From positions 1 to 39,789 of the forward strand of contig JABWCN010000041.1 of the NCBI GenBank assembly GCA_013359135.1: DNA of 39,789 nt. The letters run 5' to 3'. Below, in pieces: positions 127-17,379 of the stretch. This DNA comes from Pseudobdellovibrionaceae bacterium (GTDB taxonomy: Bacteria > Bdellovibrionota > Bdellovibrionia > Bdellovibrionales > Bdellovibrionaceae). Both the position numbers and the translations under genes were made by a program. The notes beneath the pieces were generated by a model that saw only the letters and a program-made list of their open reading frames with translations, was not told where the DNA came from and searched no databases. Position 1 is the first letter of the stretch; every line of letters begins with the position of its first letter.

Positions 127-196
127 ATGTTAGAGGAATAAATCTAAAGCACGTATGATCTAGATCATACGAACTAGATGATTTTGGCTCTAACAT
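127..196. promoter_or_regulatory. Symmetrical divergent promoter around an FNR/Dnr-type operator
   Basis: The palindrome centred at 161.5 is flanked by the same hexamer, TAACAT, on both sides: at 132-127 reading left and at 191-196 reading right. Each matches TATAAT at 4 of 6 positions. Each places a start site 41.5 bp from the palindrome centre (about 120 leftward, about 203 rightward), which is the spacing of class II FNR/CRP-activated promoters. The geometry is read directly from the sequence; activation is inferred. Confidence 0.5.
152..171. promoter_or_regulatory. Perfect 20-bp palindrome, FNR/Dnr-type binding site
   Basis: The sequence cgtatgatctagatcatacg is its own reverse complement. 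Its core ATGAT-CTAG-ATCAT differs from the FNR/DNR consensus TTGAT-N4-ATCAA only in the outermost base of each half-site. It lies midway between the divergent DUF2249-like gene and the Crp/Fnr gene. Near-identical cores occur at 3730-3743 and 15387-15400. Confidence 0.75.
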
Positions 197-869: not shown

Positions 870-1426
870 AAAAAAATGCTCTTTTCAATAGAATTATTTC
901 CGAGCATGATGAGTGCCGCAAAGTTATAGAGCAGGCCCAATCTCTGAACGATAAAAAGAAAATATTGGATTGGCTTTGGAAAGTTGTCGAAAATGAACAT
1001 CATTTCAAAGAAGAAAAACTGATCTATCCAGTACTAGCAAAAAAAAAGAAAATTAACGAAGGCGGACCATTCTGCACTCTATACTTTGATGAACACATCA
1101 CGAATAGACCTTCTGAGATATGTAAAAAAATCACCAAGAAGGATGTTTCTTGGCAGGAACACCAGATCGATTTTAAGGCAAATCCGACATCCCTAAATAT
1201 TCCACTCGAGGAACATCGATCGCTGCACGATATTTTGAAGTTCTTGATCGAAAATAAAGAACGCCTTTCTGACGATGAGTTTCTTAAAAATTTTGGCATC
1301 TATGAAAATATGTTGAAACATCACAACGCGAAAGAAGAAAAATGTTTCTTTCGCGTTTGTGAGCTTTGCCTAAGCCAAGCCGAGCTAGATTATATTTATG
1401 CAAAATGGGATACATGGTCTCTTTGA
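860..1426 (+). CDS. Hemerythrin-like HHE domain protein
   Basis: This is a 188-residue soluble protein with the iron-ligand pattern of a hemerythrin-like four-helix bundle: H16, H47/H48 with E51/E52, H119 and H123, and H154/H155 with E159/E160. It also carries a GGPFCT-YFDEH insert around residues 68-79, which is seen in a subset of HHE proteins. A di-iron centre would fit oxygen or NO binding, or repair of nitrosylated FeS clusters as in RIC/YtfE proteins, though the typical N-terminal RIC domain is absent. It is translationally coupled to the Crp/Fnr gene (10-nt overlap), so it is probably its co-transcribed effector. Its 3' end overlaps the convergent nrdD 3' end by 31 nt. Confidence in the fold is high; the physiological ligand is inferred. 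Confidence 0.85.
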   Translation: MSLEKNALFNRIISEHDECRKVIEQAQSLNDKKKILDWLWKVVENEHHFKEEKLIYPVLAKKKKINEGGPFCTLYFDEHITNRPSEICKKITKKDVSWQEHQIDFKANPTSLNIPLEEHRSLHDILKFLIENKERLSDDEFLKNFGIYENMLKHHNAKEEKCFFRVCELCLSQAELDYIYAKWDTWSL

Positions 1427-3210: not shown

Positions 3211-3667
3211 TTGTGTCCTCCTTGAAAAATGAATTGAGTTCTTCATTTGTTTTTAAATTTATCAGTCTTTGATTTGTTATTTCTGAGCTAAGTCCGCCCC
3301 GTTCATGTATGTAGGGACCATATTTTAGATAGTCTAGATTACTAATAAGTACTTGAGGGATTTCGTCGAATTGAAGTCCTGTGTAAAGCGCGATTTTTTT
3401 ATTATGCTTCTTTGCAACTTGAATCATTTCAATTAAGGAAGCGAGTTGCCATTCCCCACCCATGAATACAACACAGGAAATGTATTTTGAATATTGCGTA
3501 ACAATTTGATCAAATTTTAAAGCATCTAAATCAAAACCGCTGGCCGGATTCCACAGGTCATTTGAATGGCATCCTTTGCATTTTAAAGGACAGCCAGTGA
3601 AATGAATGGCAAGCGATATTTCATTTGGTATTTCTTGAAAGACTATCTGTAAACCACTATATCTCAT
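3194..3667 (-). CDS. nrdG: Anaerobic ribonucleotide reductase activating protein (radical SAM)
   Basis: NrdG uses S-adenosylmethionine and a [4Fe-4S] cluster to generate the glycyl radical on NrdD. The 157-residue length is normal for the family. The cluster ligands are C26, C30 and C33 in the motif CPLKCKGCH, and the VVFMGGEW segment around residue 70 is the usual GGE SAM-binding motif. The gene is first in a two-gene operon and its 3' end overlaps the nrdD start. The ATG at 3667 has only a weak binding site (AGGGC). The palindrome at 3730-3743 lies about 63 bp upstream of the start codon, between this gene and the end of the second Crp/Fnr gene. Confidence 0.95.
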   Translation of the reverse strand: MRYSGLQIVFQEIPNEISLAIHFTGCPLKCKGCHSNDLWNPASGFDLDALKFDQIVTQYSKYISCVVFMGGEWQLASLIEMIQVAKKHNKKIALYTGLQFDEIPQVLISNLDYLKYGPYIHERGGLSSEITNQRLINLKTNEELNSFFKEDTNDSLN

Positions 3668-3766: not shown

Positions 3767-4465
3767 TCATTCGTCGACTTGAGCTATAAGAAGGTCTGGC
3801 TTTAAAATTTTAATATGTTGGTCAGTTGTAACTATATAGCCTTTTTTGACCCATTCACTCATGACTCGAATGACTGACTCGACAGTAACACCAAGTGTAT
3901 CTGCAATTTCTTTTCGTGTAAGCGGCAATGGAACTTCAAGTTCATCTTTAGTTGTGTCCTTTGCGACCAGCTGTAACAACATAGCAGCCACTTTCGACTG
4001 AAGAGGCGCCCGTTGCATGATTTTTTGATTCTGAAAGCGAGCCATGCGTGTCGATAATAATCCTTGAATACGAATGATTAAATCAGAATTTTTCAACCAA
4101 TGTTGAAGATAAATGTCTCTGTGAATAAGTAGTAACCGGGATGGCCCCATGGCCTTAACATTGACCGGATACACAGGTTTAGTCTGCGGCATGACTAAGG
4201 CAGCCACAACATCACCAGGAGATGAAAAGTGAATGACTGACTCTTCACCTGAGATCGCAATACGTGAAAGCTTGTAAGCCCCAGACAAAACAATTCCAAA
4301 ATAAGAAGCGGGTTCTCCAAATGTGAAAACTTGCTCTTTATGTTGATGAACCTTTATTTCCGAATTGGCGCAAAGGTTTAAAATCAAATCGTCTGACAAC
4401 CCCGCAAACAAAGGAAATCCCTTAATTTCTGAAAGTGCACCGCCTAATGAATTTTGACTAAGCAA
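3767..4465 (-). CDS. Second Crp/Fnr-family transcription regulator
   Basis: This is a 232-residue regulator with an N-terminal cyclic-nucleotide-binding fold (about residues 15-130) and a winged helix containing PLTRKEIADTLGVTVESVIR near residues 180-199. It has one early cysteine (about C32) and lacks the FNR cysteine cluster, so it is not a canonical oxygen-sensing FNR. As in the other Crp/Fnr protein, the recognition helix keeps Glu and Arg and has Ile at the FNR Ser212 position. The start is a TTG at 4465 preceded by GAGG; no ATG is available nearby. It lies upstream of nrdG-nrdD on the same strand, separated by the palindrome at 3730-3743, so it could be transcribed separately or read into nrdG. 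Its sensed signal is unknown. Confidence 0.85.
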   Translation of the reverse strand: MLSQNSLGGALSEIKGFPLFAGLSDDLILNLCANSEIKVHQHKEQVFTFGEPASYFGIVLSGAYKLSRIAISGEESVIHFSSPGDVVAALVMPQTKPVYPVNVKAMGPSRLLLIHRDIYLQHWLKNSDLIIRIQGLLSTRMARFQNQKIMQRAPLQSKVAAMLLQLVAKDTTKDELEVPLPLTRKEIADTLGVTVESVIRVMSEWVKKGYIVTTDQHIKILKPDLLIAQVDE

Positions 4466-4468
4466 AAA

Positions 4469-4921
4469 AACCTCGGTCGTATTTTAATACCTTTTTCAAC
4501 CTATACACTCCTGTCAAAGAAAAATCACCTAACAAGTCTGGCAATCTCGCTTTCTTCGGTTTTATATTACAAATAAAAAGCCATCAATGAAAGTCTAAAT
4601 ACATAAAAACCGCTTTAATCTATATCAGAGAGGGAGGCATCGTTCTTAAGGGAGGAAAACTGTTCAAAATCGAACCTGAAATTACGCTAGATATGACCTT
4701 CATCTCAATTTATGAAAGAACTCTGATCGGGCTGCGTATATTGGAGCAGGTCAGAAAAGACAAGCAAATCAATTTATGGCACTACTTGGTTTTCTACTTA
4801 GTTGTCAAAATGGTCATAGTTGAAAATTTGATTGCGAATCCACAAAAGTGGATGAATGCTCTGATTGTCGCAAAAATGGCGAAATCATAAGAAGACTGAA
4901 CGGCATAAAGTTGGAGAGCAA
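4469..4921. other. Intergenic stretch with no convincing gene
   Basis: This 450-base stretch separates the second Crp/Fnr gene from the decayed FmdE-like gene. It holds a one-mismatch relative of the shared palindrome (TAAT-CTAT-ATCA, 4616-4627) without a sensible -10 at class II spacing. It also has a short open frame at 4693-4890 with no recognisable homology. A different frame here encodes a few closely spaced cysteines (about 4835-4870) but is broken by a stop. It looks like gene debris continuous with the pseudogene to its right. Confidence 0.4.
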
Positions 4922-5436
4922 ATGTACAATTTCGAAACAGTGAGTTCTAAAGAGTTTGAAAGTTTCACAATTAAAGTCCACGAGCCATTCGCGGAGTTTT
5001 TAATGGCTGATGAAAATGAGTACGCCTTTGAAATTTCACTACTTGATGTGTTCCATTTCGCCGGGCATGCCTGTCCCGCAATGGTGGGTGCCTTTTTGAT
5101 CTCACAACAAGCTACAAAAAAGCTCTTTAACTGAAAATAATATTTGCGTTCGCAGTAAGTATCGAGATTCCGACATCAGTCACCCAAGGGGTCACTGGTC
5201 CTATTACAACTGTCTTCTATATGATCTTTGGAGCCTGGGAAAAAAGTGGCTTTGGCGGACTGCAGGGACAGTTCGTTCGGAGAGGTCTTTTGAAGTATGA
5301 TTCTCAGTTAGTCTCGCCGGGAGCCTTTCGTTTTCGCAACCTAAAAACAGGAAACATAGTAGATGTATCTGTATATTTACGTGTAGACTTGATTTCCATG
5401 ATTTCCTCGTTTTCTGCTGCCTCTAAGCAGGTCTGA
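4922..5436 (+). pseudogene. Frameshifted FmdE-like (formylmethanofuran dehydrogenase subunit E-type) domain gene
   Basis: The reading starts at an ATG with a good binding site (GGAGAG) and runs 70 residues to a stop at 5132-5134. It includes FHFAGHACPAMVGAF, the GHxCP metal-binding motif of FmdE-like domains. The match then continues in a different frame from about 5135 to 5436: SVTQGVTGPITTV, then GFGGLQGQFVRRGLL and FRFRNLKTGNIVDVSV, all resembling the later part of the same family. One indel near 5120-5160 therefore splits the gene. FmdE-like domains outside methanogens are poorly characterised metal-binding proteins. The break is visible; whether it is a true mutation or a sequencing error cannot be decided here. 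The lack of any clear normal C-terminus favours decay. Confidence 0.65.
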
Positions 5437-5569
5437 TGTTTACATCAAATTCGTGTCCGTGCAATGGGGGGATGGTCATTTTGTCTTCGCAAGCCTTGCA
5501 CTACTGGATATGGATTCCGAAAAAAAACCTATGGATGGATATGATTGGCATTCTTCTGAAGAAATATAG
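5402..5569 (+). other. Orphan open frame of 55 codons, possible gene tail
   Basis: A frame open from 5402 to a TAG at 5567-5569 encodes a coding-looking tail (SDVYIKFVSVQWGDGHFVFA and on to DWHSSEEI) but has no start codon or ribosome binding site. It partly overlaps the end of the FmdE-like remnant in another frame. It may be the C-terminal end of that decayed gene or of a second lost gene. I do not recognise it. Confidence 0.3.
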
Positions 5570-5619
5570 TTTTGTAAGTTTCTACTTTAGATACCTATTT
5601 AAACTGTGCATTAGAATAT

Positions 5620-6726
5620 CTAAGATAAATACTCCTGCATTCTTTTATAGCTTAAATAGGCAAATCCAAATCCAATCGCAAATAGTGCTAAAATATTCTG
5701 GATGATGAAATAAGAAGATGCATCTTTTAGCATTAAGCCTCGCAAAATTTCGACATAGAATTTTAAGGGGTTTATATTAACCAACCATTTCATAATTGTT
5801 GGCATATTATCTATTGGAAACATAATTCCAGCTAATAAGTTAGCAACAAAAAGAAAAATAAATCCACCGAGCATTGCCTGCTGTTGGTTTTTTGCAAAAG
5901 TGGAAATAAATGTACCAACATTTACTGTCGAAAATACAAATGCAAAAACGGAAAGGCCAAGTAAAAAATAACTACCATTCATCGGAACTCGAAACACTAC
6001 TATTGCAAAAAACAAAATTGTAATGGCATTGATTATTCCTAAAATAAGAAATGGGATTGTTTTTCCTAAGATCAATTCAATACTGCTTATAGGTGAAACC
6101 AGGATCATCTCAAGGGTTCCCATTTCTTTTTCTCGAGAGAGCGACATGCTCGTTAGAAGTACAGTTATCAATCCTACAATCATTGCCATTGTACCAGGAA
6201 TTAAAAAATAAGGACTTCGCATCTCTGGATTGTATAAAGTTCTAATATTTAAAGAAAGAGGTGGTGTCACTAGGCCCATAATTTTAGTAGATAGAATAGT
6301 ATTAACATATCTTTCAACTGATTGTGCTCGAATTAAATTGGTTCCATCAACAATGAGTTGGTATCCTTTTTTGCTTCTTTCCTGGTCCTTAGCTGTTTTG
6401 TCCAATGGAGCAAAAAGAACAGCGTCTAGTTCTCCATTTTTCATTTTTAGAGAAATATCATCACCATGCTTCAAGGGTACAATGTTAAACCACCCACTTT
6501 TTTCAATATGATCTATCACTTGAATAAACTCTGCATCTGAAACAGAGTATTGAAATCCAATTTTTATGTTTTTAACCTCAGTTGATATCGCGACGGCAAA
6601 AACAACCATTTGAACTACTGGAAGTATAAAGAGCACAATTCTCATTTTTGTATCGCGAAGAATTTGTGAAAATTCCTTCTTGATAAAACCACGAATAGTA
6701 AATAGAGATTTATATAAATTATTCAT
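5620..6726 (-). CDS. ABC-2 type efflux permease, second of two
   Basis: This is a 368-residue inner-membrane permease of the ABC-2 (YbhR/YhhJ-like) type. One transmembrane helix near residues 28-48 is followed by a large periplasmic domain to about residue 170. A cluster of about five helices closes the protein, with the family segment REKEMGTLEMILVSPISSIE at the cytoplasmic turn. It is the last gene of the six-gene efflux operon. Its ATG overlaps the stop of the preceding permease gene in an ATGA, so the two are translationally coupled and probably form a heterodimer. The two paralogues are similar in layout but clearly diverged. The substrate cannot be read from the sequence; relatives export drugs, bile salts or envelope compounds. 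Confidence 0.9.
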   Translation of the reverse strand: MNNLYKSLFTIRGFIKKEFSQILRDTKMRIVLFILPVVQMVVFAVAISTEVKNIKIGFQYSVSDAEFIQVIDHIEKSGWFNIVPLKHGDDISLKMKNGELDAVLFAPLDKTAKDQERSKKGYQLIVDGTNLIRAQSVERYVNTILSTKIMGLVTPPLSLNIRTLYNPEMRSPYFLIPGTMAMIVGLITVLLTSMSLSREKEMGTLEMILVSPISSIELILGKTIPFLILGIINAITILFFAIVVFRVPMNGSYFLLGLSVFAFVFSTVNVGTFISTFAKNQQQAMLGGFIFLFVANLLAGIMFPIDNMPTIMKWLVNINPLKFYVEILRGLMLKDASSYFIIQNILALFAIGFGFAYLSYKRMQEYLS

Positions 6727-7841
6727 GAGTTCTCCAGATTTGACTTAAAGTTTTTAAGTGCTAACAAAACAAGAACTGATGAAAGTATAATGAGGGCAAT
6801 TGATGGAGCAATAATATTACTTATATCTGCCCCTTTAAGAAATATTGAGCGGCTAATTAATATGTACCATCGAGCAGGAAGAATAGAGGTTAGCATTTGA
6901 AAAAAAGTAGGCATATTTTCGATGGGAAAGATGAAACCTGAAAGCAAAAGAGATGGAAGCAAACCAGTGATCATTGAGATTTGCATCGCGAGTTGTTGGT
7001 TCTTGGCTAAAATTGATATAAGAATTCCCTGAGCAAGGCAGCTTACTAGAAAAACAATGCTTGTGATAATAAATGTTATTAGGCTTCCGTTAAATGGAAT
7101 TTCAAAAACCATAAAAGAAACTATCAAGACCAATACGAGTGCCATGATTCCAATAAAAAGATAAGGAACCATTTTTCCTAAAATGATTTCAATGGGTTTT
7201 ACAGGTGTAGAAAGCAACAGCTCCATTGAACCATTTTCCCACTCTTTTGCGACAGTAAGAGCTGTTAGTAAGATCGATATGAGAGCCAAGATTATAGCTG
7301 TAAGGCCAGGAACTACAAACCAAGAACTTAGTAGTTGTGGATTGTAGTAAAATTGTTCATTAACTTGAAAATTTTGCTTTACTCCAAAGTAATCCACATT
7401 AACAAAGGATCTAAACTTAGCAAGATATCCCATAATAACTCCAGCTGTAGAGTTATCAGCTCCGTCAAGAAGAACCTGAACTTGAGATGGTTTTTTTGAA
7501 ATAATATCTTTTTCAAAATCAGGTGGTATCTGTACAAATGCTTTTACATTACCATTTTCAATTTCTTTAAAAGCATCTTCAGTGCTATAAAGTTTTTCTT
7601 TGATTTTAAAGTATCCAGAATTCTCAAGCTTTTGCAGAAAGTCTCGTGAATGAGTTGATTGACTTTGATCCTGATAGGCAATCGGAATATCTTTTACATC
7701 GAAGTCGATTACAAAGCCGAATACTAATACGATGAAAAGCGGTACGACGATGGCTATTGCTAATGCATAGGGATCTCTTAAGATATGAAATTTCTCTTTT
7801 TGGGCGATAGATATAATTCTTTCGATAGGTTCATTTCTCAT
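6723..7841 (-). CDS. ABC-2 type efflux permease, first of two
   Basis: This is a 372-residue inner-membrane permease (YbhS-like) with an N-terminal helix (about 27-47), a periplasmic domain up to about residue 175, and about five C-terminal helices. It contains the ABC-2 signature region KEWENGSMELLLSTPVKPIE that contacts the ATPase. Its start overlaps the stop of the ATPase gene upstream in TAATG, and its own stop overlaps the next permease in ATGA. The pair of permeases plus the pair of ATPases matches the YbhFSR/RbbA-like layout in which an adaptor and an outer-membrane factor complete a tripartite exporter. The exported compound is unknown. Confidence 0.9.
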   Translation of the reverse strand: MRNEPIERIISIAQKEKFHILRDPYALAIAIVVPLFIVLVFGFVIDFDVKDIPIAYQDQSQSTHSRDFLQKLENSGYFKIKEKLYSTEDAFKEIENGNVKAFVQIPPDFEKDIISKKPSQVQVLLDGADNSTAGVIMGYLAKFRSFVNVDYFGVKQNFQVNEQFYYNPQLLSSWFVVPGLTAIILALISILLTALTVAKEWENGSMELLLSTPVKPIEIILGKMVPYLFIGIMALVLVLIVSFMVFEIPFNGSLITFIITSIVFLVSCLAQGILISILAKNQQLAMQISMITGLLPSLLLSGFIFPIENMPTFFQMLTSILPARWYILISRSIFLKGADISNIIAPSIALIILSSVLVLLALKNFKSNLENS

Positions 7842-8758
7842 TATCTATCTCCTTCAACTAATCTGACAAAGACATCTTCTAAATTGGGTTCGATTTCCTT
7901 TATAAAAAAAGAGCCTGCATATTTCTTTAAAAATGGCTCTAACGCATTTTGATTTTTTAGAATCAAATGATAACGTGAGCCGAAAGGCAGTAAGCTGATT
8001 ATATTTTCATCATTTTTTAGTATATCAATACTATTATTTGAAACATTAAGTTTTGAGATTTCAAGAAGAGGTTCTGGGAAAACATTATTTTTTAGATTTA
8101 CGGGTGAATCAAGTGCGATCATTTCGCCAGTTCTCATTAGCGCAATGCGATCACAGTACTCAGCTTCATCCATATAGTGAGTCGTAACAAAAACGGTTTT
8201 CCCTTTTTTAGAAAGCATACGGATGAGCTCCCAAAACTTATTTCTGTAAAAAGGAGTAACTCCAGCTGTGGGTTCATCTAGAAAGATTACTTCAGGATCA
8301 TGAAGCATTGAAACAACTAATGAAACCTGTTGCTTTATTCCTCCGGGAAGACTTGAAACCAGAGTGTCCAAAGCATAGTCGAATCCAATAAAATCCATAA
8401 GTTCTTTGATTCTTTTTTGAAAGAAAGACCTCTCAAGTTTTCTTAGGCTAGAATTGAAAGAAAGATTTTCATATACAGTTAAATCATCATATAAAGTGAA
8501 CTTTTGCGACATGTAGCCAATTTGCTTTTTTAATGCACCAATGTCTTTGTACGTCTCATTATTAACGCTTACATCACCAGTCGTTGGATGCTGAACTCCA
8601 CAAAGAACCTTGATTGTCGTAGTTTTCCCAGCTCCGTTTGCTCCTAAGAAGCCGAAAATTTCACCTTTCTTAACTTGAAATGAAATGTTTTTAACAGCAT
8701 AGAAATCACCGAATTTCACACTTAAATTATTAACGACGACGGAGTTTACGCTGTTCAT
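7841..8758 (-). CDS. ABC transporter ATP-binding protein, efflux, second ATPase
   Basis: This 305-residue ATPase has Walker A (GANGAGKTTT, about 40-49), a signature loop and Walker B (VIFLDEPTAG), followed by a C-terminal extension typical of drug-export ATPases. Two motif changes stand out. The signature is LPGG rather than LSGG, and the residue after TAGV in the D-loop is Thr (TAGVTP) where Asp is usual. The partner ATPase keeps LSGG and NGVDP, so the dimer may have one canonical and one altered site, as in asymmetric exporters. In E. coli YbhF and RbbA the two ATPase halves are fused; here they are separate genes overlapping by four bases. It sits fourth in the operon. Confidence 0.9.
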   Translation of the reverse strand: MNSVNSVVVNNLSVKFGDFYAVKNISFQVKKGEIFGFLGANGAGKTTTIKVLCGVQHPTTGDVSVNNETYKDIGALKKQIGYMSQKFTLYDDLTVYENLSFNSSLRKLERSFFQKRIKELMDFIGFDYALDTLVSSLPGGIKQQVSLVVSMLHDPEVIFLDEPTAGVTPFYRNKFWELIRMLSKKGKTVFVTTHYMDEAEYCDRIALMRTGEMIALDSPVNLKNNVFPEPLLEISKLNVSNNSIDILKNDENIISLLPFGSRYHLILKNQNALEPFLKKYAGSFFIKEIEPNLEDVFVRLVEGDR

Positions 8759-9483
8759 ACATTTTCCTTGGTATGATTTAAGTAGTATTCGTCAAATGTC
8801 TTAGCCTTAGCGCTTTCTAATAGATTTGCGGGAGTTCCTTTTGAAAAGAGTCTACCTTTATCTAGGAGATGAACAATATCACATCTTTCAGCTTCATCCA
8901 TATATGAGGTTGCATAGACAATAATGATTTCATCAGATATGAGGTGATGAAGTAATTCCCAGAATTCACGCCGACTAATGGGATCAACTCCGTTGGTTGG
9001 TTCATCTAAAAGAAGGACTTTTGGCGACTGTAGGAGGGACAGCATGAGTCCCAATTTTTTATACATTCCTCCAGAAAGCTTTCCAGCAGGTCGATCTAGA
9101 AATTTTTTAAGTCGAGTGATTTCTAATAGCTCTCGTGATTTTAATACAAAGTATTTTTCATCAAGACCATATAGTGATTTAAAAAAGTGTAAATGCTCTT
9201 CAATAGACAAGTCAGGGTATAAGCTTTGTCTTTGCGGCATATAAGAGATTTTATTTTTAATATGTTCAAAGGAGACTATTTTTGAATTTTCATAAAATTC
9301 AATATTTCCTGAGCTTGGCAATAACAATCCCATTAAATTTCGTAATAAGGTGGTTTTGCCTGCGCCTTCTGGACCGATGAGACCATGAAGTTTTCCAGAC
9401 TCAAAAACATCTTCAATATCATTAAGTGCTTTGATATCACCAAATTGTTTTTGAATTTTGTTAATTCGTATTTGAAGATTCAT
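8755..9483 (-). CDS. ABC transporter ATP-binding protein, efflux, first ATPase
   Basis: This 242-residue ATPase has Walker A at GPEGAGKTTLL (about 37-47), the Q-loop region near residue 84, a canonical LSGG signature, Walker B (VLLLDEPTNGVDP) and the switch region ending in ATSYMDEAERC. It corresponds to the first ATPase half of YbhF-type proteins. Unusually for a Walker A, the second residue is Pro-Glu rather than Pro-Asn or Ala-Asn. Its ATG overlaps the adaptor stop codon (TAATG) and its stop overlaps the next ATPase (ATGA), so the operon is tightly coupled. It should pair with the neighbouring ATPase to drive the two ABC-2 permeases. Confidence 0.9.
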   Translation of the reverse strand: MNLQIRINKIQKQFGDIKALNDIEDVFESGKLHGLIGPEGAGKTTLLRNLMGLLLPSSGNIEFYENSKIVSFEHIKNKISYMPQRQSLYPDLSIEEHLHFFKSLYGLDEKYFVLKSRELLEITRLKKFLDRPAGKLSGGMYKKLGLMLSLLQSPKVLLLDEPTNGVDPISRREFWELLHHLISDEIIIVYATSYMDEAERCDIVHLLDKGRLFSKGTPANLLESAKAKTFDEYYLNHTKENV

Positions 9484-10214
9484 TATCTCTTAATCTCCGT
9501 GTCTAAAGACATTCCAGGTTTAAGACGATTTTCTTTATTTTCTACCTTCACTTTAATGCCGTAGACTAATCTTGCTCGTTCATCGAAAGTTTGCACATTT
9601 TTAGGTGTAAATTCTGCATTTTCATTTATTTTAATTACCTTTCCTAGGAAAGTATCATTGGTTTCAGGTAGGATTAAATTTATTGAGTCACCAGTGTTAA
9701 ATTTATTTATTAGTGTTTGAGGAATATAAAAATAGACCCAATAATTATTCTTATCTAAAACTGATAATAATTTTGTTCCTGGAGTTACATATTCGCCAAT
9801 TTCATGAAAGATGTTTGTGATAACTCCATCCAAAGGAGATTTAATTTCACACCAGCCTTTTTTTATTTCAACTTCATTAAACAAAGACTTCGCTTTCTCA
9901 AAAGATTCTTTTGATCCAGCGCCACTGGTTGAAAGTTTTTTAGCACGATCATAGTCATCAAAAAGTCTAGCGAAGGTAACATTTATGTCTTCGCAATCTA
10001 GATTAATAAGGATCGTGTCTTTTTTTACTAATTCGCCCTCCTTTACCGCAATACTTTTAATGTTACTGTTAAGTCTCGATGAAATTACGATTTGAGTAGC
10101 TTCAACTGTGCCCGAGAATCTCATCGGAGAAAATCTGTCCTTTAGAAATTTAATGGTCGCTACTGAAATAATAAGTACAGGGATTATAAGTAAGTATTTT
10201 TTATTAAAATTCAT
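9483..10214 (-). CDS. HlyD/MFP-family periplasmic adaptor protein
   Basis: This is a membrane-fusion protein linking an inner-membrane ABC exporter to an outer-membrane channel. The start at the ATG at 10214 has GGAG six bases upstream; an upstream TTG at 10229 gives five extra residues without support. One N-terminal anchor helix (about 7-23) is followed by a lipoyl-type segment (GTVEATQIVISSRLNSNI, then VKEGELVKKDTILI). A short hairpin and the second half of the lipoyl domain (IKSPLDGVITNIFHEIGEYV) come next, and then a beta-barrel domain. At 243 residues it is shorter than most relatives because the coiled-coil hairpin is reduced to roughly 50 residues. The gene starts one base after the stop of the outer-membrane factor gene. 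Confidence 0.88.
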   Translation of the reverse strand: MNFNKKYLLIIPVLIISVATIKFLKDRFSPMRFSGTVEATQIVISSRLNSNIKSIAVKEGELVKKDTILINLDCEDINVTFARLFDDYDRAKKLSTSGAGSKESFEKAKSLFNEVEIKKGWCEIKSPLDGVITNIFHEIGEYVTPGTKLLSVLDKNNYWVYFYIPQTLINKFNTGDSINLILPETNDTFLGKVIKINENAEFTPKNVQTFDERARLVYGIKVKVENKENRLKPGMSLDTEIKR

Positions 10215-10215
10215 T

Positions 10216-11544
10216 TTATTCTCCGGCAATGTTAGCTAGTTGAATTAAGTTAAAAGTAATCTGATATACATTTGTGCTTAGATTTAGTTGTGCTTCTCTA
10301 CTTTTTACATTAGCCCGTTCGACTTCTATAAAAGTCGTGTGGCCCTCCAGATAACTTTTATAAAGTAGTTTTGATATTTCATTTGATTCAATAATCTTCT
10401 TCTGAATGATTTCGTTTTGTTCTGTTAAGTTATCAATTCTCTTTAGTAGTAATTGAATAGATTCATTTAAATTTCTTTCTTCGTTAAGGACTTGGTGACT
10501 CAATGCCAAGGCTTGATTTTGTTTTTCGCCTGCACTGTGAGATAGTTCGCCGCCGTCAAATATTGGCATTGAAAGCGTTATGCCAACTGCATTTTGATTA
10601 AACGGAGTAAGATCAGGTCCGTTTGGATAGTCAAGAGAGCTTTTGGCAAAAAAATTTACTTTCGGATACCTTTGTTTTGAAATAGAACTTGCATGATTTT
10701 CAAGTGATTCAGATTGGTCTTTGAGGCTTTTTATTCTTGCATTCTCAATTGTGATATAATTTCTACTTTTGTAGCTTATAAAACGATTTTTAATAAACTC
10801 TAATTTTTCTAAATAGTTTTGATCAGATTCAAAATTTATTTCCTTTATTTTTTGAGATGATGAAACTTTATATAGCTCGGATTTTTCAGCTTCAATGTTA
10901 AATGAAGTTTCTTTTAGGAGAGATTCTAATTCATGGACTTCTTTTTGAGCTGTTAATAAGTCAAGCCTTGATCCTGAACCAAAACGTTGTTTGGACGAAA
11001 CGTCCTTCAATTGTTTGTGGGCAACTTTTAAAGAATTTGCAATTAAGACTCTTTTTTCCAAAAGCAATGCTAGGTTAATATAGTGAAAGCGTGATTTAAA
11101 AAGAACATTAGATTTTAAATTAATTACTTCATTTTTCTTTGCTGAAACATTCATATTCAATGATTTTTGAAGCTGTGATTTTGCTCCGAAATCGAAAAGA
11201 GTCATTGTTAGAGTTGGACCAATACTATAATTAATATTGTCCCCAAATTTGAGTACTCGACCAGGGGCCATATTTATTTCAGGTATTTCAGATACGTATT
11301 TGTAACTTCCCTCTAATGACAGTTTTGGAATGTAGTTAGAGGTGAGGGAATGACTTTTTTCTTGAGTGGCAATAACTTCATACTCTTTAGACTTTATATC
11401 TAATGATTGGTTTAGGGCCACTGCCTCTAAATCATTTAAAGTTAAAACATTGTTTTTACTGTCTGGCTCCATGCCAAATACATGTAGAGGTGTGCTAATA
11501 ATATAAATAATAGCTAGTATTTTCATATGGTTAAGTTTCGACAT
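10216..11544 (-). CDS. TolC-family outer-membrane efflux protein
   Basis: This outer-membrane factor would form the exit duct of the efflux system. The start at the ATG at 11544 has AGGA six bases upstream. The longer frame to 11658 is rejected because it would run through the divergent marR promoter and into marR itself. The 442-residue protein begins with a signal peptide (hydrophobic run ILAIIYIISTPLHVFG, residues 8-23). Two OEP repeats follow, rich in long amphipathic helices, for example LTLNDLEAVALNQSLDIKSK near the start and GITLSMPIFDGGELSHSAG for the second repeat. It is the first gene of the six-gene operon and is divergent from marR across 55 bp. Confidence 0.9.
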   Translation of the reverse strand: MSKLNHMKILAIIYIISTPLHVFGMEPDSKNNVLTLNDLEAVALNQSLDIKSKEYEVIATQEKSHSLTSNYIPKLSLEGSYKYVSEIPEINMAPGRVLKFGDNINYSIGPTLTMTLFDFGAKSQLQKSLNMNVSAKKNEVINLKSNVLFKSRFHYINLALLLEKRVLIANSLKVAHKQLKDVSSKQRFGSGSRLDLLTAQKEVHELESLLKETSFNIEAEKSELYKVSSSQKIKEINFESDQNYLEKLEFIKNRFISYKSRNYITIENARIKSLKDQSESLENHASSISKQRYPKVNFFAKSSLDYPNGPDLTPFNQNAVGITLSMPIFDGGELSHSAGEKQNQALALSHQVLNEERNLNESIQLLLKRIDNLTEQNEIIQKKIIESNEISKLLYKSYLEGHTTFIEVERANVKSREAQLNLSTNVYQITFNLIQLANIAGE

Positions 11545-11565
11545 ATAGTTTCCTAAATTTAATAG

Positions 11566-11593
11566 TTGTATTAGTGCAATAATTGCATATAAT
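11566..11593 (+). promoter_or_regulatory. marR promoter with embedded inverted-repeat operator
   Basis: TTGTAT (11566-11571) and a perfect TATAAT (11588-11593) are separated by 16 bases. The spacer contains the inverted repeat TGCAAT-A-ATTGCA at 11575-11587, a typical position and size for a MarR-family operator. Binding there would block marR and, in the same 55-bp gap, the divergent efflux operon. The predicted start site falls on or next to the A of the marR ATG. Confidence 0.6.
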
Positions 11594-11599
11594 AAAACC

Positions 11600-12043
11600 A
11601 TGAGCAATAAAATAATAAACTCGCCGATAGAACGTTTCACAAGGATACTTTTTAGCAAAGTTATTGAGCGACTAGCAGTCGTCGTAAGTGAAGAGCATTT
11701 GAGCTTTTCTCAAGTGGCTGCTCTTCATATCATTGATCGCGATAAGACAGTTAATGTTAATGATATTTCAAATAAATTGAATCTTTCAATGTCTGCAACA
11801 AGCCGAATGATTGACGAGTTGGTCAAAAAAGAGCTCATTCAAAGAAAAGAAGATCAGGATAATAGGAGAGCTAAGATCATTTCTCTTACACCGGCTGGGG
11901 AAACGTTTATGAATAATCTTAGTGTTGAGCGTGTGAAAATAATTGAATTATCCGCAAGCACCATTGCAGATAAGATCCCTTTAAAAATATTAAAAATTAT
12001 CAGTGGAAAACTTTTTAAAAACAACAAAGAGGTAAAGCTATGA
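11600..12043 (+). CDS. MarR-family transcription regulator
   Basis: This is a 147-residue winged-helix regulator, probably a dimeric repressor of the divergent efflux operon and of itself. The HTH runs through VNVNDISNKLNLSMSATSRM (residues 51-70), with the wing at KEDQDNRRAKIISLTPAG, where the DxRR motif is characteristic of MarR proteins. No ribosome binding site precedes the ATG (aataaaacc) and the -10 box ends seven bases before it, so translation may start on a leaderless mRNA. The last four bases overlap the next gene (ATGA). Divergence from an efflux operon with a shared intergenic operator is the classic arrangement for ligand-released repression. The ligand is unknown. Confidence 0.88.
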   Translation: MSNKIINSPIERFTRILFSKVIERLAVVVSEEHLSFSQVAALHIIDRDKTVNVNDISNKLNLSMSATSRMIDELVKKELIQRKEDQDNRRAKIISLTPAGETFMNNLSVERVKIIELSASTIADKIPLKILKIISGKLFKNNKEVKL

Positions 12044-12330
12044 AACATGTATTAATGGAAGAGATTGCTCTAAGTGAAGATGGCAAAATAGTTAAAGTTT
12101 TATCAAACCCATCCTTCAAACTAATTGGGCTTGGTTTAAAAAAAGAGCAATCTTTAGATAAACATTCAACTTCGAGCAAGGCAATTCTGATTGTACAATC
12201 TGGGAATGTCGATTTTTTTATTAAAGGCGAAAAGTACAATCTACAAAGTGGTAGCTTTTTTGAAATACCTGAAAATGTCGAACACGAAGTCAAAGCTAAT
12301 ATAGATTCATATTTGTATTTAATTAAATAA
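12040..12330 (+). CDS. Small cupin-fold protein
   Basis: This is a 96-residue single-domain cupin. Motif-like segments are AILIVQSGNVDFFIKGEKY (about 50-68) and LQSGSFFEIPENVEHEV (about 70-86), giving a beta-barrel with few of the usual metal-binding histidines: only the H in VEHEV is obvious, so metal binding may be lost. Small cupins of this type often act as cytoplasmic sensors or small-molecule binders. It is translationally coupled to marR by an ATGA overlap, so it is made with the repressor and could bind the same signal. Its function is not known. Confidence 0.7.
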   Translation: MKHVLMEEIALSEDGKIVKVLSNPSFKLIGLGLKKEQSLDKHSTSSKAILIVQSGNVDFFIKGEKYNLQSGSFFEIPENVEHEVKANIDSYLYLIK

Positions 12331-12341
12331 TGGAGAAAGAA

Positions 12342-12773
12342 ATGAAAATTACATTAGTCGCTTTACTTATAGCTGTTACAAATATAGCAATAGCACAAAA
12401 TCATGATCATCATTCCGGTCATGGAAAACAGATTTCAAACAAAGCCGAGTCAAAAATTAAGTTTACTCCCACCAGTGATCTAAAAGTTCGAATGGAAAAA
12501 ATATTAAGTTTAATGAAAGAGATAAATCCAAAAAAGGATGACGTTAAGGTTGTTAAGTCTTACGGCGATAAGATTACAGAAACAGTTAACGACATTTTCA
12601 AAACTTGCAAGCTTGATCCTGACGCCGATGCCGCCATTCACCCTTCACTAGGTTTGATTCTTGATGGTGCCTCTGATTTTAAAAATGGTCAGTATGAGAG
12701 TGGTCATAAAAAAATACATGAGGCACTTCTAGGATACGAAAAGATGTTTAATCATGTTGGCTGGAAGCACTAG
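12342..12773 (+). CDS. Secreted histidine-rich small helical protein
   Basis: The start at the ATG at 12342 is chosen because GGAGA lies just upstream; an ATG at 12330 overlaps the cupin stop and lacks a site. The 143-residue product has a signal peptide (ITLVALLIAVTNIAIA, cleavage near residue 18) followed by a histidine-rich N-terminus (NHDHHSGHG). A mostly helical domain follows, with conserved-looking HPSLGLILDGA and GHKKIHEALLGYEKM near the C-terminus. The His cluster suggests metal binding in the periplasm. There is no CXXCH motif, so it is not a cytochrome, although the fold may be a similar four-helix bundle. I do not recognise a named family. Confidence 0.7.
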   Translation: MKITLVALLIAVTNIAIAQNHDHHSGHGKQISNKAESKIKFTPTSDLKVRMEKILSLMKEINPKKDDVKVVKSYGDKITETVNDIFKTCKLDPDADAAIHPSLGLILDGASDFKNGQYESGHKKIHEALLGYEKMFNHVGWKH

Positions 12774-12838
12774 TAAGATAAACTGATAAGACTTTAAATT
12801 AGGTTCGATTTTCATTAATTTTGAAAGGAAAGATTAAC

Positions 12839-13261
12839 ATGGGAAATCAAAATGAGGGTAGAAAAAATCTAGTAGTTGGGTTTTATGCAATGGCTGGATT
12901 TATGCTTTATGGTTTCTTATTAATATACCTAAGGGACTTTGCACCCAACGCTGCTGAATGGGCTGCCGCCTATGGCAATGGAAAACACTTTGAGGCTAGA
13001 TTGGCCCATGTGCATGGTAATCTTTTTGCATTCTTGAATATCGTCATTGGATATCTGCTGTTTAAGTTAGATATTAGTTTTAAGCAAAAACAACTTGTGT
13101 CTTGGTTAGCTATTCTAGGAATGTTGATGCCAGTTGGTATCTTATTAGAACTCTTGTTGTCAGCTTCTCCAGTCTTTGTTCTTATCGGTGCTATTTGTAT
13201 GACAGCAAGTGTGTTCATGTTGGGCTACTTTATAAGTAAATCGAAGAATACTGTCATTTAA
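12839..13261 (+). CDS. Four-helix integral membrane protein with AHVHGN motif
   Basis: The start is the ATG at 12839, with AAAGGA about nine bases upstream; a TTG at 12821 precedes that site and is rejected. The 140-residue protein has about four transmembrane segments (roughly 13-33, 60-80, 87-107, 113-133). A conserved-looking stretch, HFEARLAHVHGNLFAFLNI, begins near residue 50. The paired histidines at the membrane face recall small four-helix proteins of the styrene-oxide-isomerase type, which bind heme b, but this link is only a resemblance. The gene follows the His-rich secreted protein and precedes another small membrane protein on the same strand. Function unknown. Confidence 0.7.
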   Translation: MGNQNEGRKNLVVGFYAMAGFMLYGFLLIYLRDFAPNAAEWAAAYGNGKHFEARLAHVHGNLFAFLNIVIGYLLFKLDISFKQKQLVSWLAILGMLMPVGILLELLLSASPVFVLIGAICMTASVFMLGYFISKSKNTVI

Positions 13262-13299
13262 AGTGGATTTGGTGAAAAGAAACCTGAAAAGGGGGATAT

Positions 13300-13701
13300 G
13301 TGAATTTAAAAAAAAAGAATGTTTGGATAGGATTGGTTTTTTTGATTTTCGGATTAATGACGATTTTATCTGGTGGAAGATCTTTATTTACAGAAAGTGG
13401 AATTGCTACAAGAGGAAATATCGTTCCTCTTGTACTATGGTTTAATTTTATTGCGGGCTTTTTTTATCTTGTTGCAAGTGTTTCCATTTTTAAGATGAAA
13501 ACTTGTATTAAAAAGCTTTCTTTAGCAATTGCGGTATCTAGTGCATTTGTGCTTGCGTATTTATTTAATCATATTTTCCAAGGGCAACTTTATGAACTCA
13601 AAACACTTGTTGCTATGATTTTTAGAACCTCATTTTGGATTATATTTGCTATTTATTTCCACAGGTCAAATTTGTTTAAAAAAATTGAATGCAACTGTTA
13701 A
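13300..13701 (+). CDS. Small integral membrane protein, four predicted helices
   Basis: This 133-residue hydrophobic protein starts at a GTG preceded by a strong GGGGG site five bases upstream. Predicted helices lie at about 8-26, 43-63, 74-95 and 105-122. The C-terminus carries a short polar tail ending CNC. No motif allows a family call. It follows the AHVHGN membrane protein by 38 bp and is probably the last gene of the marR-led operon. The IS3 remnant begins shortly after it, so a further gene could have been lost. Confidence 0.65.
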   Translation: MNLKKKNVWIGLVFLIFGLMTILSGGRSLFTESGIATRGNIVPLVLWFNFIAGFFYLVASVSIFKMKTCIKKLSLAIAVSSAFVLAYLFNHIFQGQLYELKTLVAMIFRTSFWIIFAIYFHRSNLFKKIECNC

Positions 13702-13740
13702 CTTTTAAAAAGCCACTTAATATGGGAGGTCTTTGAAATT

Positions 13741-14032
13741 ATGAATCCAATGTATGTTTCACCACGTACACCGAATCGTAATGCGTATATCGAATCATTT
13801 TTTTTCAATATTTGAAAAAACAATCATCGAAATTAAATATTTTAATAGTTATCACGATTTTTATGAAGCGGTAATGAACTTTGTTGAGTTTTATAACAAT
13901 CGGAGATTGCATGGTTCTATCTGTAAACTAAGTCCTGTAAACTCTATTAAAAAATATGAAGCGGGTGAAATTAAAACTATGTTGTTTCAGCTTAAATTGT
14001 TCGGAATAAAAGGGTTGACGGGTATCTTATGA
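13741..14032 (+). mobile_element. IS3-family transposase (orfB) C-terminal remnant, frameshifted
   Basis: From 13741 one frame reads SPRTPNRNAYIESFF, the end of the integrase core including the catalytic Glu region of IS3-group transposases. At a run of eight T (about 13798-13805) the frame shifts, and the match continues as FYNNRRLHGSICKLSPVNSI, the classic IS3 C-terminal motif. The N-terminal two thirds of the protein and any terminal inverted repeats are missing. This is therefore a dead fragment, not an active insertion sequence. It lies between the marR-led operon and nnrS. Confidence 0.8.
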
Positions 14033-14132
14033 TCCTTCTACAGTAAAGGTTCCGGATGATGCCGTAAACCTACCTTTTCAAAAGATTTGGCGTTATAAAA
14101 TTGAAACTATTTTAAAGAGTCCTGCGGACTAA
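14019..14132 (+). other. Orphan 37-codon open frame, possible tail of a lost gene
   Basis: After the IS3 remnant a different frame stays open from 14019 to a TAA at 14130-14132 and encodes VKVPDDAVNLPFQKIWRYKI followed by ETILKSPAD. The amino-acid composition looks like real protein, but there is no start codon or binding site. It may be the 3' end of a gene removed together with the IS element, upstream of nnrS. I do not recognise the family. Confidence 0.3.
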
Positions 14133-14168
14133 ATTCAAAGTAATCGTGCGAACTCTTGCTAGGAGACC

Positions 14169-15338
14169 ATGATTCTTTTACAATTTTTATCCCACCGTCA
14201 TTCGCTTTGGCTTGCTGGCTTTCGTCCTTTTTTTACGATCGCTATAATGATGGGCCTAGTAATGCCGTCCATCTGGGGGGTATTATTTTCCGGAATACTA
14301 ACTTTGCCTCTCGGACTTACACCTATTCAGTGGCATGCGCACGAAATGTTATTTGGATTTGCCGGTTCTGTGCTCATTGGATTTTTGCTCACAGCAAGCA
14401 AAAATTGGGTCAATGTCCGAGGTATTCATGGTGCCAGCCTTATGGCCCTTGTGGGGCTATGGATTTTCGAAAGAGTTTTCATTTATTTTGGATCTAACAT
14501 TGGTCCAATTTTTAAACATATTGGGTTAAGCGTTTTTTTCGCAGCAAGTGGAGTATATATTGTCGGCACTTTGCTTAGATATCGCCACAACGACAATTTC
14601 AAGGATAACTATTTTTTTGTCATCTTATTGGGACTTATTCTTGTGGCCAAGAACCTATTAGTTACAGAAACTTACTACCACTATGGAGTGAGTATGTCAG
14701 TAGGCCTATTTAGGCTGGCCTTTGTAGTAATGTTTGAACGTACTATACCGCAGTTTATGAAAAATACTGAGGGGCTGTCCTTGTACAAAAATAGTCTTTT
14801 AAACTTTTTAATCAAATTATTGGTTTTGATTTCTGTCTTTCAGGCTATGTTTTTACCGCTTGTAGCCGCGACTATAATTGTTATTGCAGGTTTGCTACTT
14901 TTTCTTAGATGGATTCTTTGGAGACCTGATATTGGCTTTAAAAAATTTGGAAACACAACTATGTATTTTGGCTATTTGGGTCTCGTTTTACATTTAATTT
15001 TTGAAGCTTTACAGACCCTTGAGGTATGGAGTAGGGCGACAATTGCACTACATATATTCACCTTTTTATGCTTAGGAGTTGTTGTTCCTAGTATGTTGAT
15101 TCGAATTTCTCAAGGTCACACAGGTCGTAAGCCACTGTTTTTTACTTCTGACAAGATTGCTGTCTTTTTAATTATTTTTTCCGGACTAGTAAGACTTTTG
15201 TTTCCCCTAGTTTTTCCGGCACAATATTCTTTTTGGATTATGATGGCAGGTCTTTTGTGGTCGGTAGCCTATTTAATACTTGGGATTAGACTTTTGCCAT
15301 TTTTATTTCAGACTCGCATTGACGGTAAAGAGCATTGA
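14169..15338 (+). CDS. nnrS: NnrS family heme-copper membrane protein
   Basis: NnrS is a polytopic inner-membrane protein tied to nitrogen-oxide metabolism and protection from nitrosative stress. In characterised cases it binds heme and copper. This 389-residue copy has about twelve hydrophobic segments. It shows the family hallmarks RPFF near residue 19, WHAHEMLFGFAGSVLIGFLL at about 56-75 followed by TAxxNW, and the later HIFTFLCLG region. The ATG at 14169 has a strong AGGAG site. It lies 112 bp upstream of norE; that gap holds an FNR-type site, so nnrS and norEF may be separate transcripts. Its own promoter is not obvious, and an IS3 scar lies just upstream. Confidence 0.9.
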   Translation: MILLQFLSHRHSLWLAGFRPFFTIAIMMGLVMPSIWGVLFSGILTLPLGLTPIQWHAHEMLFGFAGSVLIGFLLTASKNWVNVRGIHGASLMALVGLWIFERVFIYFGSNIGPIFKHIGLSVFFAASGVYIVGTLLRYRHNDNFKDNYFFVILLGLILVAKNLLVTETYYHYGVSMSVGLFRLAFVVMFERTIPQFMKNTEGLSLYKNSLLNFLIKLLVLISVFQAMFLPLVAATIIVIAGLLLFLRWILWRPDIGFKKFGNTTMYFGYLGLVLHLIFEALQTLEVWSRATIALHIFTFLCLGVVVPSMLIRISQGHTGRKPLFFTSDKIAVFLIIFSGLVRLLFPLVFPAQYSFWIMMAGLLWSVAYLILGIRLLPFLFQTRIDGKEH

Positions 15339-15386: not shown

Positions 15387-15428
15387 CTGATATAGATCAT
15401 ACCGTTTCCTAAAAAAATCACTGATATT
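15387..15428 (+). promoter_or_regulatory. FNR/Dnr-type site and class II promoter of norE
   Basis: CTGAT-ATAG-ATCAT at 15387-15400 is the third copy of the shared motif, with one mismatch in the first base. GATATT at 15423-15428 matches TATAAT at 4 of 6 and would place the start site near 15435, which is 41.5 bp from the centre of the binding site at 15393.5. This is exactly class II spacing. The norE leader would then be about 15 nt and still include the AGGTGG ribosome binding site. Confidence 0.6.
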
Positions 15429-15449: not shown

Positions 15450-16037
15450 ATGTCAGACACTAATTTAACGAAACAAAACTGGGAATTACCCGGTGGTTTA
15501 TTCATCTGGATTATTTCTGTTCACGAGACTTTATTATTTTTTATTTCATTGGCTATTTTCAAATATCAAAAATCAACAGACACAGTACTTTTTAGTCAAG
15601 AAAGCAGCTTCGTGAATCTTTCCCAGGGTACCTTTTATAGTGTCTTACTTATTGGCAGCGGTTGGGCTATTGCGGAAGCCCAATCGAAATATACAATATC
15701 TAGGAGAGGCACAGGAAGGGCTGCAAAAAATTATCACCTATTGGGTTTGGTTCTAGGAATTGCATTCTTAAGTCTAAAAATTTTCGACTTTGCAGATAAA
15801 ATCAAAATTAATAAAAAGTTTGGCGACGATGCTTTTTGGACCTTCTATTGGTTCTTAAATAGCTTTCATTTTTTTCATGTCTTAGTGGGTATAATTTTTC
15901 TTATTTTCCTATTCTTTAAACTAAGAAAAAAACCTGAAAATAAAGACATCGAGTTATTCAACTCCGTCGCCATTTTTTGGCACGCTTGTGACATCATCTG
16001 GATATTGCTCTTTGCAAGCCTATACATTGGGAACTAA
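15450..16037 (+). CDS. norE: NorE-type heme-copper oxidase subunit III-like protein
   Basis: This is a 195-residue membrane protein with five predicted helices, of the cytochrome oxidase subunit III superfamily. NorE members accompany nitric-oxide reductase and support its activity without carrying cofactors. The start PGGLFIWIISVHETLLFF matches the NorE N-terminus. The C-terminus contains WFLNSFHFFHVLVGIIF and FWHACDIIWILLF, the usual subunit III helices. The ATG at 15450 is preceded by AGGTGG. NorF-like follows after one base. No NorB or NorC gene is visible in the window, so the reductase itself must be elsewhere or absent. The subunit III superfamily is certain; NorE rather than CoxC rests on length, start motif and context. 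Confidence 0.82.
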   Translation: MSDTNLTKQNWELPGGLFIWIISVHETLLFFISLAIFKYQKSTDTVLFSQESSFVNLSQGTFYSVLLIGSGWAIAEAQSKYTISRRGTGRAAKNYHLLGLVLGIAFLSLKIFDFADKIKINKKFGDDAFWTFYWFLNSFHFFHVLVGIIFLIFLFFKLRKKPENKDIELFNSVAIFWHACDIIWILLFASLYIGN

Positions 16038-16038
16038 T

Positions 16039-16248
16039 ATGAAACTTAAACTAACTTTCTTATTTTTGCTTACTCTTTTGGTCATCAGTCTTTACACACA
16101 CTCTCTATTTATTTTAGCACTGATTGTCTTTTCAAAAATAGCACTTATCCTTTTCAATTTCATGGAACTTAATGAGTGTGATCTTCTAATTAAAATTAGC
16201 TTGATATCTTTCTTTTTCCTTGGAACCGGACTGATTATATTTCTATAG
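16039..16248 (+). CDS. norF: NorF / subunit IV-like small membrane protein
   Basis: This 70-residue protein has two or three hydrophobic segments. The position directly after norE (one base between stop and ATG) and the central FNFMELNE segment fit NorF or the prokaryotic cytochrome oxidase subunit IV family, in which two to three helices and an F-x-x-M-E turn are typical. It probably stabilises the NorE-associated complex. Such short hydrophobic proteins are easily misassigned, so the symbol rests mainly on gene order. Confidence 0.6.
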   Translation: MKLKLTFLFLLTLLVISLYTHSLFILALIVFSKIALILFNFMELNECDLLIKISLISFFFLGTGLIIFL

Positions 16249-16308
16249 CTTTTTTTTTAAAAAACAAGATGCCTTGATAAATTAACTTTCAAAAGATATC
16301 CTATCACA

Positions 16309-17379
16309 ATGAATCAAAGATGGTATTCACTAGGTTTTGTTTCTTTACTTTTAACTTTACTCTTGGGAATACTTTATCGTTTTCAATTTGCAGGTATCAG
16401 TTTTTCAATTTTAAATTCAATTAATTTACACCAGGCTCATACGCATATGGGCTTTTATGGTGCTATGGCCGCACTCGTTTTTTTTGTTCTATCGAAAAAT
16501 GTCACAGCCCTTGATAAAGCTCCCCATTTTTGGGCATATTTTTTCCTACTTTTTGGCAGCTTTTTAGGTTTTTTGTTTGATGGGTACAATATTTTTACGA
16601 AAATTTTTTCTTTTTTAATTTATCTCTACTGGCTTTATTTTGTCTATAATTTTTATAAATTCATGGCTTTAGAGACTAACTCCAAAAAATGGATGAAAAT
16701 TTCATTTTATTCTTTGCTGATAGCTGCTTTATTCCTAATTTTGATAATTTATATAGCTAGATACGAATCTACAAATTTAATTAATTCTATAGTTAAAGGA
16801 TTTTTATTGATGCTACTCCTTGGCTTTTTTACTCCAATAGCCTTGCGAAAACTTGATTACATGCCTCCACCCCCCTGGATATGGCTGACATTGACAAGCC
16901 TTGCCGCTATTGGCATTAGCTTTTCAATTTTATCAGTTTTGAATCCTTTGTCACTTGGAACTCTCGGTATACTTGTTTTAGTAAAGCAAAGAAAAAACTT
17001 TGGTAAATTTAACTTATCCAACTGGTCACATTATCTTTGGCTTCTGCAATCATTAGGTATGATTTTATATAATTTACCGATTTTAAAAAAATCGCACTTT
17101 GTTGACATTGCAAGTCTCCATTTTTTGATTTTAGGCCCAATAACAACAAGCTTTATAGAATTTCAAAGCGTAAAAATTAAAAATACTTACATATTAACTT
17201 TTCTATTTTTTATTTATACACTAATTACAATCGATCCGATTTTTCACAGATTACTATTTTGGAATCCGGACTTAAATCATTTCATTGCTGCTTGTGTGGG
17301 AATTGCTTTAATCCTTATTTTACTTGTAAATCTACTTTTAGTTTCAATCCAAAAAAAATATTCCATTAGCAAGTTGTAG
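16309..17379 (+). CDS. Polytopic membrane protein with HQAHTHMGFYG motif, nitric-oxide cluster
   Basis: This 356-residue, very hydrophobic protein has about eleven predicted helices. At the end of the first loop it carries H41, H44 and H46 in LHQAHTHMGFYG. Further histidines occur near the C-terminus (HFLILGPITTSF, and HRLLFWNPDLNHFIA). Similar L-H-A-H-x-H segments occur in uncharacterised multi-helix proteins and recall heme ligation in heme-copper oxidase and NnrS-type proteins. It follows norF by 60 bp on the same strand, so it is probably co-expressed. I do not recognise a named family; a heme-binding role is an inference from histidine placement and neighbours. It is too short and lacks the motifs to be NorB. 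Confidence 0.75.
   Translation: MNQRWYSLGFVSLLLTLLLGILYRFQFAGISFSILNSINLHQAHTHMGFYGAMAALVFFVLSKNVTALDKAPHFWAYFFLLFGSFLGFLFDGYNIFTKIFSFLIYLYWLYFVYNFYKFMALETNSKKWMKISFYSLLIAALFLILIIYIARYESTNLINSIVKGFLLMLLLGFFTPIALRKLDYMPPPPWIWLTLTSLAAIGISFSILSVLNPLSLGTLGILVLVKQRKNFGKFNLSNWSHYLWLLQSLGMILYNLPILKKSHFVDIASLHFLILGPITTSFIEFQSVKIKNTYILTFLFFIYTLITIDPIFHRLLFWNPDLNHFIAACVGIALILILLVNLLLVSIQKKYSISKL

Follow-up and report, generated by a model that had tools for sequence, protein, structure and literature searches.

In the heme-copper oxidases, as known from the structures of cNOR and the aa3 enzyme, the low-spin heme is carried by helices II and X, and CuB or FeB by helices VI and VII. NnrS, for its part, reportedly carries heme and copper. 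It has been called a postulated NO sensor (PMC9409073), and is said to protect cellular iron from dinitrosyl complexes without removing NO (PMC9246220); the membership of nnrS in a regulon has also been described (PMC1274295). In addition, joint regulation of norE and norCBQD has been observed elsewhere (PMC6710368).

In this work we analyzed a stretch of 39,789 nucleotides (the window) from a Pseudobdellovibrionaceae bacterium, in which nnrS and the norE- and norF-like genes are followed by a gene encoding a 356-residue membrane protein, here called Q. We consider it fairly probable that Q is an NnrS-like, catalytically degenerate accessory protein of NO metabolism, likely to bind heme b and encoded in a nor/nir cluster that is cut by the contig end.

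Genes and putative control sites around norE and norF

The genes for the NorE-type protein, the NorF-like protein and Q have the coordinates already given by a first-pass annotation made from the sequence (Table 1). The norE gene is distinct from the one that encodes subunit III of the aa3 oxidase in the same genome (C88), and a small NorF-like protein behind norE is an arrangement also present in another genome, G085. The norF-like gene and Q are separated by 60 bp, in which no terminator-like site was seen. The core TGATNNNNATCA has five exact sites in the window versus 1.26 expected, a number reached by 2 of 100 shuffles; the cores at 156 and 3731 are close to the two genes for CRP/FNR-type regulators.

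Table 1 Features of the window around the norE, norF and Q genes and at the contig end
Feature	Position	Strand	Basis
FNR/DNR-type box, 5' of the crp/fnr gene and, in the divergent direction, of DUF2249-norCBQD (runs off the contig)	155..168	+	
CRP/FNR-family regulator at the contig end	204..869	+	Counterpart in G062 flanks DUF2249-norCBQD
Second CRP/FNR-family regulator	3767..4465	-	
nnrS, directly upstream of norE	14169..15338	+	PF05940, E 2e-63
FNR/DNR-type box CTGATATAGATCAT, 49 bp 5' of norE	15387..15400	+	Box search
norE-like gene of the COX3 family, 195 aa	15450..16037	+	PF00510, E 1.3e-10, above cut-off
norF-like small membrane protein, 69 aa	16039..16248	+	COX4_pro match, E 9e-4, below cut-off; position behind norE
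Q, membrane protein of 356 aa	16309..17379	+	ORF call, family alignment, AF2 model
Helix II motif of Q, L-H-Q-A-H44-T-H46-M-G-F-Y	16426..16461	+	H44, H46 and G48 invariant
His271 of Q, helix X (S-L-H-F-L-I-L-G)	17119..17121	+	Invariant; helix comprises residues 263-283

Other genes of this region were also noted. Positions 4466-14150 of the window (about 9.5 kb) are absent from the sister genome UBA2316, in which an FmdE-like gene and nnrS come after the CRP gene (L011). These positions include genes for an ABC-2 type exporter, HlyD-like and TolC-like proteins, a MarR regulator, a cupin and small membrane proteins, as well as a transposase fragment, and they look like an insertion in the denitrification cluster. 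Within them, 12821-13261 encodes a 146-residue membrane protein without family, whose motif RLAHVHGNLFAFLN is similar to that of helix II in Q, NnrS and the oxidases. A protein of about 210 residues that is not recognized by Pfam, and which we take to be FmdE-like, is encoded near norEF in two genomes: with nnrS in G062 (L011:5211-5855) and upstream of norEF in G085 (L126:2782-3405); no ORF for it was seen in the window. The anaerobic ribonucleotide reductase genes nrdD/nrdG are found in two copies in one genome (window 1396-3667 and L043:3541-5818), both with a CRP/FNR gene on either side and denitrification genes nearby.

The nor block and the contig end

According to the first-pass annotation, norE and norF stand without NorB and NorC. 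This is true of the assembly: queries with norB and norD gave no match in its 94 contigs, norCBQD was not found elsewhere in the genome by DNA comparison either, and PF00115 is matched only by CtaD of the aa3 oxidase (C88) and a fused cbb3 subunit I/II (C23). However, base 1 of the window is base 1 of contig C85, which stops inside a DUF2249 gene. In the nearest genome, the sister UBA2316 (G062), the order is Q-norF-norE-nnrS-(FmdE-like)-CRP-nrdG-nrdD-hemerythrin-CRP, and the second CRP gene is followed by DUF2249-norC-norB-norQ-norD-nirK-nirV-SCO-nnrS. Only 252 bases of this nor block were found on C85, with 97% identity, and they end in DUF2249 at the contig end. The genome of the window has a single nirK (C88), which shares only 73% identity with its counterpart in the G062 block, whereas G062 has two. 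From the comparison with G062, the point where C85 stops and the low identity of nirK, it can be deduced that about 10 kb (norCBQD-nirK-nirV-SCO-nnrS) are missing at the contig end. The norCBQD block most likely lies beyond it, and a gap of assembly or binning is the simplest reading. Since the window starts where norCBQD follows in G062, a real absence of norB is not established, and the notion of accessory genes standing without their reductase is not supported. The case illustrates how a contig end can mimic a missing enzyme.

As a separate observation, the nirK genes at L042:5824-7239 and L043:9176-10609 encode NirK that carries a cytochrome c domain fused to its C terminus, and are followed by genes for a sulfatase-modifying-factor-like NirV, SCO and NnrS.

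Distribution and gene neighborhoods of Q

Relatives of Q were found in 7 of 369 Bdellovibrionota genomes, belonging to four genera. They form a small and coherent family with identities of 25-28%, apart from a near-identical pair and one fragment. One scan of genome contigs gave the sister UBA2316 as the sole match, and no relatives were found on plasmids or viral contigs. No match for Q was obtained in Pfam, NCBIfam or the PDB sequences, and Pfam assigns no family to its relatives; Q is a previously unnamed protein. The copy of G062 is split across two contig ends, and that of G064 (L017:1-522, G064:C25) is a remnant that borders a contig end and has stops in frame ahead of residue 220; this fragment was left out of the family alignment.

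The neighbors of Q are nor, nir and nnrS genes. G063 and G068 share the order nirK-nirV-SCO-nnrS-Q, and NirK of G063 scores above the curated cut-off (373 vs 296 bits); in G085, norCB is divergent from Q; in G032, which has no nnrS in the whole genome, Q adjoins qnorB and the gene of an Rrf2 regulator (nsrR). Genes of the norB type are present in 71 of the 369 genomes and in six of the seven that carry Q, the seventh being the genome of the window. The Fisher p value for this co-occurrence is 2.5e-4 when the latter is counted as norB-negative and 4e-5 when it is left out; by genus it is 0.0025. G060 and G061, of the same genus and without Q, also lack norB. Conversely, Q is not essential to NO reductase, given that 65 of the 71 genomes with norB are without it (e.g. 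G004, G303). An ortholog of NorE is encoded in only three of the seven genomes with Q (G000, G062 and G085); NorE and NorF adjoin Q in the genome of the window and in G062, and are located elsewhere in the genome in G085. Together, the gene neighbors and the frequency of norB (6/7) compared with NorE (3/7) connect Q with the reduction of NO and nitrite more closely than with NorEF. The association of this family with nitrogen-oxide genes that had been anticipated is therefore borne out, whereas the case for a specific partnership with NorEF is weak.

Predicted fold and conserved histidines of Q

The AlphaFold2 model of Q, obtained with a five-sequence family alignment, has 12 helices, one more than was counted in the first-pass annotation, with a mean pLDDT of 71 and a pTM of 0.71; residues 1-220 are mostly at pLDDT 70-90, and the C-terminal third is near 50. 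When this model was compared with 985 realigned chains, heme-copper oxidases and NO reductases filled the first 49 places with Z values of 15.0-22.9; their matches span as many as 331 of its 356 residues (3.3-4.5 A), and a receptor comes next, at Z 7.9. For cbb3 (8smr_E) the values were Z 22.6 over 291 residues at 3.3 A, and for cNOR (3o0r_B) Z 21.9 over 324 residues. Foldseek placed cbb3 at ranks 1-4 with probabilities of 0.99-1.00, but with E-values of 0.1-0.3. A control prediction for NnrS (12 helices, 7 sequences) gave a pTM of 0.42 and a pLDDT of 49, indicating that the oxidase fold is not imposed by the method on every such protein. Q has no PF00115 match, and profile comparison gave no significant match with NorB, CcoN or CtaD; given that the accepted homologs NorB and CtaD also fail this test, its negative outcome decides nothing for Q. 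From the structural comparison, Q is predicted to have the fold of subunit I of the heme-copper oxidases and NO reductases.

The motif HQAHTHMGFYG pointed out earlier is present in Q, and the only invariant histidines of the family alignment are H44 and H46, in helix II of the predicted model (40-62), and H271, in the tenth helix (263-283). His41 is replaced by Arg in the other four members of the alignment. As for the C-terminal histidines that had been emphasized, His271 is invariant, but His313 and His324 are not conserved. The location of the conserved residues on predicted helices II and X fits the suggestion that the motif could ligate heme. The local motifs are R-Q-A-H-T-H in the relatives of Q, R-A-T-H-T-N in NorB, R-P-L-H-T-N in CcoN and R-Q-A-H-A-N in cluster-type NnrS; by sequence, His44 appears to line up with the residue that ligates heme b in NorB and CcoN, and the profile alignments agree, with scores that are not significant.

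Q resembles subunit I (CcoN, NorB) in its predicted fold, in having histidines on predicted helices II and X and, apparently, in the pattern R-x-x-H-[TS]-[HN] at the low-spin heme b ligand. In contrast, it is about 90 residues shorter than NorB, and its family alignment has no invariant histidine for CuB or FeB on helices VI and VII nor for a high-spin heme. Judged from these residues, Q is without the catalytic metal site, which would make the usual reduction of NO or O2 impossible. NorE and NorF are different from Q, being COX3- and COX4-like proteins of unrelated fold.

Relation of Q to NnrS

Q gave a full-length profile match with NnrS from these clusters, at scores of 41-47, the maximum for block shuffles being 16-26; NorB, CcoN and CtaD scored low in the same comparison. 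With 25 canonical NnrS proteins added to the profile the score was 27.0, versus a shuffle mean of 19.4 and a maximum of 28.4, a result that weakened the claim of a strong homology. Because the score falls to the level of the shuffles with the richer profile, the kinship is not proven; Q is probably a distant relative of NnrS.

Both are 12-helix membrane proteins of NO/denitrification regulons encoded by adjacent genes, and both have an invariant histidine in an H-x-H motif of helix II and another near helix X. In NnrS, H56, H295 and R312 are invariant and H317 nearly so (numbering of NnrS from the window); the invariant H44 and H271 of Q align with H56 and H295. On the other hand, the R312....H317 motif is absent from the Q family alignment, no Q protein matches PF05940 or any other Pfam family, and the profile link is gone against canonical NnrS. 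With the NnrS model (7 sequences), the top VIA ranks are mostly cbb3 and NOR (286-320 residues, Z 8-10), and Foldseek gave no clear match for this model of pLDDT 49; its resemblance to cbb3 and NOR is suggestive at most.

Discussion

Two alternatives concern the data on which our reading of the locus is based. If norCB had truly been lost in this strain, NorEF and Q would form a separate module that handles NO without a reductase, a picture close to that of the first-pass annotation and compatible with an assembly rated 99.98% complete in which norB, norD and norCBQD DNA are all absent. We regard this loss as improbable: the contig stops inside DUF2249, exactly where the nor block starts, with 97% identity to a sister genome that has the whole block, and a completeness based on markers is compatible with one absent piece of about 10 kb among 94 contigs. 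Even less probable is a reading of Q as a transporter or sensor of the ordinary 12-helix kind, to which a prediction from few sequences lent an oxidase fold. The alignment has only five sequences, the C-terminal confidence is weak and the oxidases have no sequence match to Q; nevertheless, above Z 8 only heme-copper oxidases and NO reductases were retrieved, the invariant histidines are on helices II and X, and the NnrS control, with seven sequences and also 12 helices, did not go beyond a pTM of 0.42.

With respect to function, Q could be a maturation factor or auxiliary subunit of NO reductase that works with NorE and NorF, e.g. a second subunit I-like protomer or a heme b donor to NorB. Its position behind norE-norF with no terminator-like site in between, the presence of norB in six of the seven genomes and the fact that COX3-type proteins normally pack on the subunit I fold speak for such a role. 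We nonetheless think it unlikely, considering that most genomes with norB (65/71) have no Q, that NorE accompanies it in only three of seven, and that its partner in G063 and G068 is NnrS rather than NorE, its neighbor in G032 being the one-subunit qNorB.

As an NnrS-like accessory protein, Q would keep the positions of the low-spin heme b on helices II and X, with the ligands of the high-spin heme and of CuB/FeB lost, and one heme b might be bound through His44 (or His46) and His271. Q would be made together with the denitrification enzymes, as suggested by the FNR/DNR-type boxes 5' of norE and of the cut-off nor block, and would not be the reductase; without itself removing NO, it may serve to limit nitrosative damage at or within the membrane during NO production by NirK. 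What the analysis shows is the gene order, the family, its co-occurrence with norB, the predicted fold and the conserved histidines; that Q binds heme, through which ligands, and that it acts like NnrS are inferences, the function being deduced from gene context and from NnrS.

A wider idea, which we offer tentatively and hold to be possible although rather doubtful, is that Q, and perhaps all NnrS proteins, are pseudo-NO-reductases in which the oxidase fold and the low-spin heme b would have been kept, the binuclear center lost and a new role in protection against NO acquired. The literature search found nothing that joins NnrS with the heme-copper oxidase superfamily or with AlphaFold, an absence that is no proof of novelty. 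If true, this idea would explain the old report of heme and copper in NnrS. Proteins of the NnrS type occur widely in regulons that respond to NO, and how they work is still debated; a predicted subunit I fold without the catalytic site, in a protein of denitrification, leads to a testable idea on the role and the origin of these proteins.
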